Assembly: GCF_000334215.1 (NCBI RefSeq)
Contig: NZ_AMQY01000008.1
Span: forward strand, 1 to 64,000
DNA from: Vreelandella jeotgali Hwa
GTDB lineage: Bacteria; Pseudomonadota; Gammaproteobacteria; Pseudomonadales; Halomonadaceae
Direction: 5' to 3'
DNA length: 64,000 bases
Shown here: positions 23,570-35,805 of the stretch, in pieces
Layout: each line of letters begins with the position of its first letter
Numbering within the stretch: the stretch's first letter is position 1
Translations under genes and position numbers: made by a program
Notes under the pieces: generated by a model
What the model saw: the letters and a program-made list of their open reading frames with translations, nothing else
Databases searched by the model: none
Told to the model about the DNA's origin: nothing

Positions 23570-23651
23570 TCGCTGGCCGGCCCGCATGACCGCCTTGCGT
23601 GCAAATGACAAATTACAATCTACATAGCGTACAAGGAAAAGAGGGAGAACC

Positions 23652-24482
23652 ATGTCCAACGCTGCCTCCATTCGTCGCGTGCTGACCATCGCCGGTTCGG
23701 ATCCGTCCGGCGGTGCCGGGATGCAGGCCGACCTGAAAACCTTCTCCGCGTTGGGCTGCTACGGCACCAGCGTGATCACCGCGCTTACCGCGCAAAACAC
23801 CCAGGGCGTGCGCGGCGTCGAGCCGGTATCACCCGGTTTTATCGCCGAGCAGCTGGATGCGGTGCTGGATGACATCGCGCTTGACGCGGTGAAGATCGGC
23901 ATGGTGGCCAGCCGCGAGGTGGCCGAAGTGATTGCCGCGGCGTTTCGCCAGCGCCGGCCGCGCTGGATTATCCTCGACCCGGTGATGGTGGCCAAGAGCG
24001 GCGATGTGCTGGTGGACGACGCCGGTATTGCCGCGGTGCGCGACGTGCTGTTACCGCTGGCCGATATGATCACCCCCAACATGCCCGAGGCCGCGGTGCT
24101 GCTGGACGCCGACACGCCGGCCACCGCGGCTGACATGGAGGCGCTGATGCCGCCGTTGACCCGGCTGGGCGCGCCCCGGGTGCTGCTCAAGGGCGGGCAC
24201 ATGAGAGGCGACGAGTGCCCCGACCTGCTTGCGACCCCGGAGCGTCAGGAATGGCTCACCGCTCCGCGGGTGGTGACGCAGAATCTTCACGGCACCGGCT
24301 GTTCGCTGTCGTCGGCCATCGCCGCAACGCTGTCCAGGCTGCCCGGGGGCTTCTCGGATGCCGACGTGGTAGCGGCCATCAGAGAGGCCAGAGAGTGGCT
24401 ACAGGTCGCGCTTGAAGCCGGCAAACGGCTGGACGTGGGCGAGGAATGCGGCCCGGTACACCATTTTCACGCCTGGTGGTAA
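23652..24482 (+). CDS. thiD: Hydroxymethylpyrimidine/phosphomethylpyrimidine kinase
   Basis: A 276-residue ribokinase-fold enzyme that phosphorylates HMP and HMP-P in thiamine synthesis. Motifs: TIAGSDPSGGAGMQADLKTF at the N-terminus, ALTAQNT, DPVMVAKSG, and the catalytic anion-hole motif LHGTGCSLSSA. No TPP riboswitch was recognised in the 80-base gap upstream. thiS and thiG lie 12 kb away on the other strand. Confidence 0.95.
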   Translation: MSNAASIRRVLTIAGSDPSGGAGMQADLKTFSALGCYGTSVITALTAQNTQGVRGVEPVSPGFIAEQLDAVLDDIALDAVKIGMVASREVAEVIAAAFRQRRPRWIILDPVMVAKSGDVLVDDAGIAAVRDVLLPLADMITPNMPEAAVLLDADTPATAADMEALMPPLTRLGAPRVLLKGGHMRGDECPDLLATPERQEWLTAPRVVTQNLHGTGCSLSSAIAATLSRLPGGFSDADVVAAIREAREWLQVALEAGKRLDVGEECGPVHHFHAWW

Positions 24483-33837: not shown

Positions 33838-34752
33838 ATGACAAGCATTATCGATGCGCTGGGGCCGCTGTTTGCCCTGATTGGGCTGGGCGCGGTTCTG
33901 GGCGCTGTGCGTTTCATGCCGGCGGGGTTCTGGCCGCAGCTGGAGCGGCTGGTGTATTTCGTGCTGTTTCCCGCGATGCTGGTGTCCACGCTGGCCACGG
34001 CGGATATCAGCCAGGTCCCCGTGGGGCGCCTGGCGGTGGTGTTGCTGGGCAGCATGGCCGGTTTTGCGCTGCTGCTGTGGCGGCTGCGCCACTGGCTGGG
34101 GCTCGAGGCCGCGGCGTTTACCTCGGTGTTTCAGGGCGCGCTGCGTTTCAATACCTACGTGGGGGTGGCCGGCGCCGCCGCGCTGCACGCCGGTCAGGGC
34201 ACGACCGTGGCAGCGGTGGCCGTGGCGCTGATGGTACCCACGGTGAACGTGATCTGCGTAACCGGGTTTGTCGCCGCGGGCACCCTGGGGCGCGCCGGGG
34301 TGCGGCAGAGCGTGCTGGCGTTGATCCGTAACCCGCTGATACTTGCCTGCCTGCTGGGCGCGGGGCTGAACCTCTCGGGCCTGGGCTTGCCGGGGTGGAG
34401 CGAAGGCACCGTCACCCTGGTCGGGCGCGCCGCGCTGCCTCTGGGGCTGTTGGCCGTGGGCGTGGCGTTGCGGCTGTCGGCGCTGTTGCGCCTGAGCCGG
34501 GGCGTGGTGACGGCGGCGGGGGTCAAGCTGGTGCTGATGCCCGGCCTGGCGCTGGCGCTGGCCTGGGCGCTGCAGCTGGACCCGGTGAGCCGCGATGTGG
34601 TGCTGCTGTTTGCCGCCCTGCCCACGGCCACTTCGGCGTATATTCTGGCGCGACAGCTGGGCGGCGATGCCGAGATGATGGCCGCGATTATTACCGGGCA
34701 GACGCTGCTCGCCATGCTGACTCTGCCGCTGTGGCTACAGCTGGCGGCCTGA
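33838..34752 (+). CDS. AEC-family (auxin efflux carrier-like) permease
   Basis: A 304-residue membrane protein with ten predicted helices in two inverted halves of five, the layout of AEC/BASS-type carriers such as MdcF and MleP. GALRFNTYVGVAGA and the LPTATSAYILARQLGGDAEMMAAIITGQT-like end (landmark: PTATSAYILA) are conserved. Bacterial members carry malonate, malate or similar organic acids. GGAGA six bases before the ATG at 33838 decides the start; longer starts have no signal. No enzyme neighbour hints at the substrate. Confidence 0.85.
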   Translation: MTSIIDALGPLFALIGLGAVLGAVRFMPAGFWPQLERLVYFVLFPAMLVSTLATADISQVPVGRLAVVLLGSMAGFALLLWRLRHWLGLEAAAFTSVFQGALRFNTYVGVAGAAALHAGQGTTVAAVAVALMVPTVNVICVTGFVAAGTLGRAGVRQSVLALIRNPLILACLLGAGLNLSGLGLPGWSEGTVTLVGRAALPLGLLAVGVALRLSALLRLSRGVVTAAGVKLVLMPGLALALAWALQLDPVSRDVVLLFAALPTATSAYILARQLGGDAEMMAAIITGQTLLAMLTLPLWLQLAA

Positions 34753-34784
34753 CGCCGGCAGGATAAAAAAGATTCGCATTCATG

Positions 34785-34813
34785 TTGACGCATTGAATGA
34801 GAATGATTATATT
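34785..34813 (+). promoter_or_regulatory. Sigma-70 promoter of the candidate small RNA
   Basis: TTGACG at 34785-34790, 17 bases, TATATT at 34808-34813: five of six matches in each hexamer with ideal spacing. The predicted start is near 34820. No gene lies in this direction before the terminator at 34933. Confidence 0.75.
34793..34811 (+). promoter_or_regulatory. Fur box overlapping spacer and -10
   Basis: TTGAATGAGAATGATTATA matches the 19-bp Fur consensus (GATAATGATAATCATTATC) in 13 positions, including both inner AATGA and ATTAT blocks. Its place over the spacer and -10 is that of an iron-dependent repressor site. Confidence 0.7.
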
Positions 34814-34819
34814 AAATGT

Positions 34820-34962
34820 GCGGCGTTTGATGAGACGCCGCGCCACGGCAGCAACCGCCAGTTAACTGCCATGGTTTCTCCCTCTCATTGCCAGGCGAGA
34901 CGCTAGCCTGGATTGCTAGTCACGGTTTGATTGCCGCTTCCACCTGGGAGCGGCTTTTTTTT
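34820..34962 (+). ncRNA. Candidate Fur-regulated small RNA (RyhB/PrrF-like)
   Basis: A stand-alone transcription unit of about 140 nt between convergent genes: promoter with Fur box, 5' stem-loop 34820-34841 (8-bp stem GCGGCGTT/GACGCCGC), an open pyrimidine stretch TTTCTCCCTCTCATTGCC at 34873-34890 complementary to ribosome-binding sequences, a stem CCAGGC/GCCTGG at 34891-34911, and a terminator. The only ORF is 11 codons without a ribosome binding site. This is the design of iron-sparing sRNAs repressed by Fur. It is a prediction from structure and position; expression and targets are unknown. Confidence 0.65.
34933..34962 (+). terminator. Intrinsic terminator of the candidate small RNA
   Basis: Nine-bp stem (GCCGCTTCC with GGGAGCGGC, one wobble), loop ACCT, then eight T residues: ideal Rho-independent form and the kind of U-rich end that Hfq binds. 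Confidence 0.93.
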
Positions 34963-35025: not shown

Positions 35026-35805
35026 TCAATCGGTGCGGCGGTAGATCAGGTCGCTGACACCGTGGCCGAGCTGTTCGCCGCGCTGCTCGAATTTGGTCAG
35101 CGGGCGAAACGCCGGGCGCGGGACATAAGGCGCGGTGTCGGCGTTGGCAGTGTTGGCAAAGCCGGGGGCGGCGTCCATGATGTCGGCCATCCATTCGGCG
35201 TAGCTTTCCCAGTCGGTCGCCAGGTGAAAGCATCCGCCGGGCGCCAGGCGCGTGCGTACCAGCTCGACAAACGCCGGCTGCACGATGCGGCGCTTGTGGT
35301 GCTTTTTCTTGGTCCAGGGGTCGGGGAAGAACAGCTGCAGGGTCGTCAGGCTGTTTGCCGGCAGGCACTGTTCCAGCACCGCCAGAGCGTCTTCGCGGTA
35401 AACCCGCAGGTTGGTCAGGCCGCGCTTGTCGGCCTCGTCGAGCAGCTTGCCCACGCCCGGCGCGTGCACTTCGATGCCGATAAAATCGGTCTCCGGGTGG
35501 GTTTCGGCCTGCTCGACCAGCGAATGGCCCATGCCGAAGCCGATTTCGACGACGCGCGGCGCACGGCGGCCGAACAGCGCGTCCAGATCCTGGCGGCCGT
35601 CGGCGATGGTCAGCCCCAGCCGGGGCCAGACGTTGTCCAGGCCTCGAGTCTGCGCCTGGGTCATGCGTCCGGCGCGAATCACGTAGCTTTTGATGCCCGG
35701 GCGGTGCAGCGGTGCGTCGGCGCTTTCCATGCCGGTGGGTGCTGCGTCGGTGGAAGGTTCTGTGTCGAAAGAGCTTTCTGTGTCGGGAGAGCGTGTGTCA
35801 GTCAT
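35026..35805 (-). CDS. trmB: tRNA (guanine-N7-)-methyltransferase
   Basis: A 259-residue SAM enzyme that makes m7G46 in tRNA variable loops. SAM motif [10 protein letters not shown] (about 88-97), IGIEVHAPG, the catalytic-region motif [16 protein letters not shown], and the C-terminal TKFEQRG are all present. The first 35 residues are acidic and repetitive (DT and ES units, encoded by two 17-18 bp near-repeats around 35760-35795), so the true start may be an internal ATG at 35730. Follows thiG by 17 bases, the usual neighbour. Confidence 0.95.

Follow-up and report, generated by a model that had tools for sequence, protein, structure and literature searches.

The stretch of DNA analysed here (the window) comprises 64,000 nucleotides from Vreelandella jeotgali Hwa, and between the genes for an AEC-type permease and trmB it contains a short block whose function we have asked about. 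The original prediction took this block for a Fur-controlled small RNA gene of the RyhB/PrrF design. According to the analyses below, it is very probably a prrF-type gene of the Halomonadaceae (Vreelandella/Halomonas group), encoding an sRNA of ~143 nt that would be silenced by Fur, spare iron and pair with acnB. The features of the locus are as follows.

33838 (in-frame ATG) to 34752 (stop), plus strand: upstream gene of an AEC-type permease, by family scan, below the curated cut-off
34772-34780, plus strand: conserved element ATTCGCATT upstream of the -35 box; across 59 promoters, identity is >=90% in 8 of 9 columns
34785-34790, plus strand: -35 hexamer TTGACG, from the sequence, conserved in 59 promoters
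34793-34811, plus strand: Fur-box-like sequence over the -10 box, 13/19, kept in 59 promoters
34808-34813, plus strand: -10 hexamer TATATT, from the sequence, with a 17-bp spacer from the -35 box
34820-34962, plus strand: predicted sRNA transcript of ~143 nt (fold, conservation, covariation)
34820-34841, plus strand: 5' hairpin (fold; 4 of 6 consensus pairs with compensatory double changes)
34842-34875, plus strand: second hairpin (fold, covariation), whose 3' arm extends into CATGG
34870-34891, plus strand: core block A CATGGTTTCTCCCTCTCATTGC, with a CU-rich part complementary to the ribosome-binding regions of relatives' acnB
34891-34911, plus strand: third hairpin (fold), in the clade-specific insert
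34892-34916, plus strand: insert of 25 nt that splits the core and ends in an ATTGC repeat; hairpin 34891-34896/34906-34911
34917-34926, plus strand: core block B TAGTCACGGT, common to PrrF (TAATCACGGT)
34917-34932, plus strand: fourth hairpin, weak (fold)
34933-34962, plus strand: Rho-independent terminator, stem 34933-34954 of 9 pairs, then T8
35026-35805, minus strand: trmB, downstream and convergent (family scan)

The promoter TTGACG-17-TATATT agrees with the consensus at 10 of 12 positions, as near-perfect as had been claimed, and in a scan of 1.2 kb on both strands we have found 2 promoter-like sites against a shuffle mean of 0.1. The 13/19 match over the -10 box, counted against what we take to be the Fur-box consensus, is real as well. 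Taken alone, this score is weak, since it is attained at 4 distinct places across the 64 kb of the window (a match of 16/19 or better was not seen in the scan of the window); the site becomes more convincing through its conservation, the motif being retained in 59 promoters (55 distinct) from relatives. These promoters largely retain the -35 box and, besides the Fur-like ATGAGAA.., the upstream ATTCGCATT, which is possibly a second Fur half-site. The genome has a single Fur-family match, which the ferric uptake regulator equivalog model scores at 202 bits, above its cut-off of 146. From the conserved box together with this Fur gene, we infer that Fur represses the sRNA gene.

The promoter also bears on whether the block is a gene of its own. 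As it lies directly downstream of the AEC permease gene (stop at 34752) and in the same direction, the block might be merely the 3' UTR or terminator region of that gene, without a separate RNA. We find this extremely improbable, for the near-consensus promoter belongs to the block itself and is conserved in 59 copies, and 17 of 73 loci, including all 11 from other families, have no AEC match within ~1.5 kb.

If transcription starts at 34820, that is, 7 nt after the -10 box, the 143-nt transcript has a predicted fold of -60.2 kcal/mol (z = -3.97), and 0 of 200 shuffles are equally stable. The length fits the ~140 bases originally proposed, while the two stem-loops proposed with it have to be replaced by four hairpins, one of them weak, plus the terminator. 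The ideal terminator with eight T is present, and the CU-rich stretch of block A, described as exposed, is single-stranded in the predicted fold, with a 6-bp stem between block A and block B. We have aligned 36 transcripts, selected from the 59 promoter-bearing copies and trimmed at their tails, and compensatory changes on both sides are seen in 12 of 22 predicted pairs. In the same 36 rows the TGGTTTCTCCCTCTCATTG columns of block A are invariant, a few indels aside, and so are the AGTCACGGT columns of block B. Gene structure, conservation and compensatory base-pair changes have been shown by computation.

The block also contains reading frames. A plus-strand ORF across it (34793-34906, TTG start) starts within the promoter. 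Besides, 94 of 112 distinct copies contain a 7-codon frame at ATGGTTTCT..., with the peptide MVSPSHC, which would suit a dual-function RNA whose product is a micropeptide read from block A. We have considered this possibility and rejected it as hardly credible. Nucleotide conservation alone accounts for the frame, its start codon lies inside a stem, and no ribosome-binding site is seen by eye, just as the absence of any ORF with such a site had been claimed. Moreover, indels in block A break the frame in L041, L045, L056 and one L057 copy, and it is not retained in several other genera (e.g., L215 and L217).

The expectation that the block is conserved across the Halomonadaceae has been borne out, well past its flanks. 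A DNA search has found it in 41 of 58 relatives (E <=0.01), of which 37 are of the same genus and the remaining 4 give short matches with E of 0.003-0.007; when the whole family is searched, 188 of 275 genomes match (E <=0.001). Among the genomes listed from the family search, which leave aside 67 unmatched ones, all 82 of the same genus match. These counts are lower bounds, since a covariance model has found the RNA in G065, where BLAST missed it. The best matches span ~14-214 of the 226 query positions, i.e., the block and little beyond, and most relatives match the query as two pieces flanking the insert. The named genomes that match the core belong to Vreelandella, Halomonas, Billgrantia and Halovibrio, and in the Vreelandella jeotgali Hwa genome one sRNA copy is found by DNA search.

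Which family, then, does the RNA belong to? The Rfam PrrF model (RF00444), which includes the promoter, aligns from 1 to 150 of its 150 positions at 34785-34962, with 41.7 bits and E of 4.3e-6. Since this score is below the gathering cut-off of 90 bits, we call the RNA a PrrF homologue and not a member of RF00444 as curated. The same model matches 26 of 58 relatives (E <=0.01; our own genome is absent under stricter filters), and its cut-off is passed only by G056, of another family; none of the 37 genomes from the window's genus reaches it. Once promoter and Fur box are taken off, the window transcript scores 18.0 bits against the model (E 0.43, not significant), and the transcript of one relative without its promoter scores 30.5 bits (E 8e-4).

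The low score of the window transcript alone would be expected if this were an independent RyhB-like sRNA, resembling PrrF only by convergence on a Fur promoter and a CU-rich seed, and the example of BrrF in Burkholderia, as excerpted from PMC7377471, shows that unrelated iron sRNAs do arise. We judge such convergence very unlikely, mainly from a transcript-only model, R1, built from the 36 rows of the window's group. R1 gives 107.8 bits to the window transcript, which is one of its rows, and it finds the PrrF RNA of G056 (L031) with 33.3 bits (E 2.8e-5). Together, L031, two copies in L032, and L033 score 26-33 bits (E 2.8e-5 to 7.7e-4), and R1 matches the PrrF RNAs over all 119 model positions; L031 is an accepted PrrF, with 127.5 bits by the Rfam model. 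Of 293 genomes of the order, 27 contain an R1 match, and 15 of these belong to other families. Conversely, the Rfam PrrF model matches 10 of 11 loci tested (43-70 bits, and L031 at 127.5), L213 giving no match at E <=0.01. Furthermore, the cores grade from GGTTATCTCCTCATCAGGCTAATCACGG to GGTTTCTCCCTCTCATTGCTAGTCACGG through intermediates that retain GCTA[AG]TCACGGT at the same place. That is, homology outside the promoter comes from R1 finding PrrF RNAs, the window's own transcript alone being not significant. On the reverse test with R1, the Rfam scan of the loci and the graded cores, we conclude that, by sequence comparison, the RNA is a diverged PrrF homologue, despite failing the Rfam inclusion score. 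The original assignment to a RyhB/PrrF design, with which structure, Fur-box-like site and conservation agree, can so be sharpened by computation to PrrF homology. For the RyhB family, there is no match to the window among cmscan hits up to E 10.

Compared with known systems, the RNA is closest in description to PrrF1 and PrrF2 of Pseudomonas aeruginosa (RF00444). They have in common a Fur box at the promoter (the overlapping box predicted here is the 13/19 site conserved in 59 promoters), two hairpins, a terminator, and an unpaired core ending CTA[AG]TCACGGT. On the other hand, our RNA has the core CTCTCATTG in place of CTCATCAGG, this core is split by 25 nt, and one copy is found in the genome; both halves of the PrrF-type core TCTCC..TCATC..GCTAATCACGGTT are present in the window, diverged and 25 nt apart. 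The available text of PMC2851614 covers PrrF1/F2, PrrH and the homologues ArrF and NrrF, and calls ArrF of Azotobacter vinelandii an iron-repressed PrrF homologue, to which we liken our RNA by description only. RyhB of Escherichia coli works alike, being Fur-regulated and binding complementary sequences in mRNAs of iron proteins (excerpts of PMC2851614 and PMC7377471), but we claim no homology with it. BrrF of Burkholderia cenocepacia is similarly a low-iron sRNA with sodB and sdhC among its predicted targets, but it is described in the excerpted part of PMC7377471 as lacking a Fur box directly upstream and similarity to known Fur sRNAs. In the literature on Halomonas and on sRNA applications, as far as the excerpts go, the P. 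aeruginosa PrrF1 scaffold is a synthetic tool in Halomonas bluephagenesis (PMC12164125, PMC13101641, PMC13414033; the last also has P. aeruginosa PrrF entries), and the portion seen of a cheese review has PrrF as a general example only. In the open-licence literature, outside of which most subscription titles lie, we have found no description of a native PrrF homologue in the Halomonadaceae in the text available. The present finding extends PrrF to a salt-loving family missed by the curated model's cut-off, and a native PrrF relative could cross-talk with the PrrF1 scaffold tool in Halomonas.

As for its action, we propose that, when iron is plentiful, Fur would bind the box over the -10 and keep the gene silent, and that, when iron is scarce, the ~143-nt sRNA would be made. 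Its exposed CU-rich core would then pair with mRNAs of iron enzymes at their ribosome-binding regions, and by this pairing, translation would be blocked and iron spared; the one candidate target with comparative support is aconitase B. Overall, the sRNA probably shuts down iron-costly enzymes, e.g., aconitase, under iron scarcity. It is from the sequence that we infer transcription, Fur control, use of Hfq and the repression of targets by the RNA.

The pairing step can be compared among genomes, and the review table excerpted from PMC6321483 lists acnB among the PrrF targets. For five genes, we have matched the region from -40 to +15 with the core of the same genome; the comparison covers those 21 of 24 genomes searched that have a whole acnB (G005, G029 and G288 dropped; the sodB set also lacks G016, G024, G025 and G028, and the bfr set lacks G016). 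A gene passes if its longest perfect complement is reached by no more than 5% of 300 dinucleotide shuffles. The ribosome-binding region of acnB passes in 18 of 21 genomes, a count to be weighed with the fact that contiguous complementarity was chosen late, after energy scoring; by pairing energy, <=5% of shuffles are equally good in 9 of 21. The typical acnB site, (A)ATGAGAGGG, lies ~17 to 8 nt upstream of the GTG start and mirrors CCCUCUCAU(U); the predicted partners are the seed CCCUCUCAU in the sRNA and AUGAGAGGG on the acnB side. As a side observation, acnB matches in two pieces in G029 (C1, 1706676-1709236, with a stop within one piece) and in G005 (C1, 2577201-2579761).

We have also collected 14 further genomes from outside the window's genus, out of 20 searched, whose acnB exceeds the family cut-off and whose core is known. 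Twelve of them are of new genera, G120 and G149 fall in g29 like G096 and G136, and for G399 we have used the core of its congener G372. Singly, 5 of the 14 pass the shuffle test, with the core/site pairs CTGATGAGG and CCTCATCAG (G372, G399, G037), CTTGATGAGG and CCTCATCAAG (G190), and CAATGAGGG and CCCTCATTG (G149); G233, G056, G042, G374, G065, G120, G504, G311 and G322 fail it. In 32 genomes taken together, the three split-core genomes being excluded, the mean acnB run with the own core is 8.47 vs 6.95 with shuffled labels (0 of 5000 as high). When the 10 core types are compared, the own core comes top, alone or tied, in 25 of the 32 genomes and second in 3, with low ranks in G120 (9th), G504 and G311 (both 6th) and G374 (5th). 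Permutations of the 10 core types are as high in 5 of 20000 cases; 16 of the 32 genomes have the same core type, and the permutation counts ignore relatedness. In these comparisons, core and acnB site tend to change together across genera, and this correlated change opens direct pairing to swap testing. Iron-sparing action on acnB appears, from sequence, the best-supported mechanism: the predicted pairing is supported by correlated change in relatives and weak in the window genome, where acnB offers 7 contiguous pairs, an unexceptional run (a fraction of 0.117 of 300 shuffles is equally good).

For the other genes the picture is different. Contiguous complements beyond chance occur in 0 of 17 genomes for sodB, 0 of 21 for sdhC and 0 of 20 for bfr, and thiD passes in 1 of 21; by energy, sodB passes in 2 of 17, sdhC in 2 of 21, bfr in 2 of 20 and thiD in 3 of 21. 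The contiguous test leaves room for shorter or gapped pairing of sodB, sdhC and bfr. Of the proposed pairing between the CU-rich segment and the ribosome-binding regions of iron enzymes, the part supported is acnB in relatives, and the target prediction suggested for sodB, sdh and bacterioferritin has not supported these genes. By energy duplex scoring, 13, 11 and 13 of the 56 window genes do as well as sodB, sdhC and acnB of the window's genome, respectively, and long-query duplexes are uninformative for separating targets from background. A pattern of the 17-nt seed complement with one mismatch, searched genome-wide, gives just two hits besides the sRNA itself. The best-pairing of the 56 window genes is thiD (-26.2, 19 pairs); with a shorter core, its ribosome-binding region and start codon at 23640-23654 form 15 pairs with one bulge (-24.0). 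We have set it aside as a target, as the best of 23 other genomes reaches only -16.8, which points to chance or a private gain. The bfr of the window's genome pairs well (3 of 56 window genes equal it), and it was also set aside given 0 of 20 genomes by contiguous run. Separately, ~90 bases before sdhC look strongly conserved by eye, with GC-rich repeats (L089-L116), and are perhaps another leader element.

We turn to the insert that splits the core. An insert between CATTG(C) and AGTCACGG is confined, in the copies that we have read, to the window's genome (G000), G009, G287 and G288, with lengths of 25, 13, 26 and ~37 nt, respectively. The core is contiguous in 89 of 89 copies from named genomes, counted with the fixed pattern TCTCCCTCTCATTG and <=30 nt after it, a count from which records near the window may be left out; it is contiguous, too, in those relatives outside the split-core clade that were read. 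The split in the window's species and three relatives is new compared with the contiguous PrrF-type cores. Against an 18-nt unit of the block next to it, TAGTCACGGTCTTATTGC, the insert aligns better than 999 of 1000 shuffles in G000 and in G009, and better than all 1000 in G287, scores that are aided by the common ATTGC end and depend on where the insert is cut; the G288 insert has no signal against this unit, 354 of 1000 shuffles being equally good. Plausibly, the insert originated when sequence was duplicated in tandem between two ATTGC repeats and then decayed. In a first tree, G282 and the four split-core species make up a clade of five (support 0.996), while a second tree places G282 with G288 (0.988) and gives the five-species node only 0.142; the two trees also disagree on G000 and G009 as sisters. 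G282 has no insert, yet is nested inside the split-core clade, and recombination between the repeats may therefore have removed an insert once present there. The history may consist of one gain plus a loss in G282, or of more than one gain.

The split coincides with the weakest acnB pairing. G000, G009 and G287, with 7, 6 and 7 pairs, have the shortest acnB matches and are the three of 21 genomes that fail the test, and a whole acnB was not found in the incomplete G288 genome. As this weakness comes from one clade, it counts as a single observation. It could be taken to mean that prrF is decaying in the window's clade, the insert marking loss of function: the insert differs in length and sequence among the four genomes, and acnB complementarity is lowest there. 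We nevertheless consider decay improbable, as promoter, Fur-like box, core blocks, helices and terminator are intact in all four genomes (with small junction changes in G288), and the window's insert folds as a clean 6-bp stem. On the other hand, the split core together with the shorter acnB match suggests that the target set may have shifted. As a tentative reading, which we hold to be unlikely, the normally unbroken PrrF core was split in one clade, probably by duplication of its second half, into two modules with new sequence between them (in the window's genome, a stem), with the long ancestral acnB pairing lost and other targets possibly gained. Under this reading, possible gains in the window's genome are bfr and thiD, the latter with 15 pairs at 23652 that extend to the start codon. 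If true, the split core would be a natural experiment in rewiring an iron-sparing regulon, and it could show which half of PrrF does what.

Apart from the question of the prrF-type gene in the window, we have observed tandem arrays in some relatives. At least 3 sRNA copies are arrayed in L231 (Vreelandella alkaliphila), L048, L051 and L052, where a promoter is recognisable in the first copy only and terminators are retained in the array copies that were read. More than one copy exists in 17 of 66 named loci, and arrays of the L258 type have a promoter on every copy. Tandem prrF is described, in the excerpted text of PMC2851614, as restricted to P. aeruginosa among Pseudomonads; PrrH-like read-through RNAs may accordingly exist in the present arrays as well.
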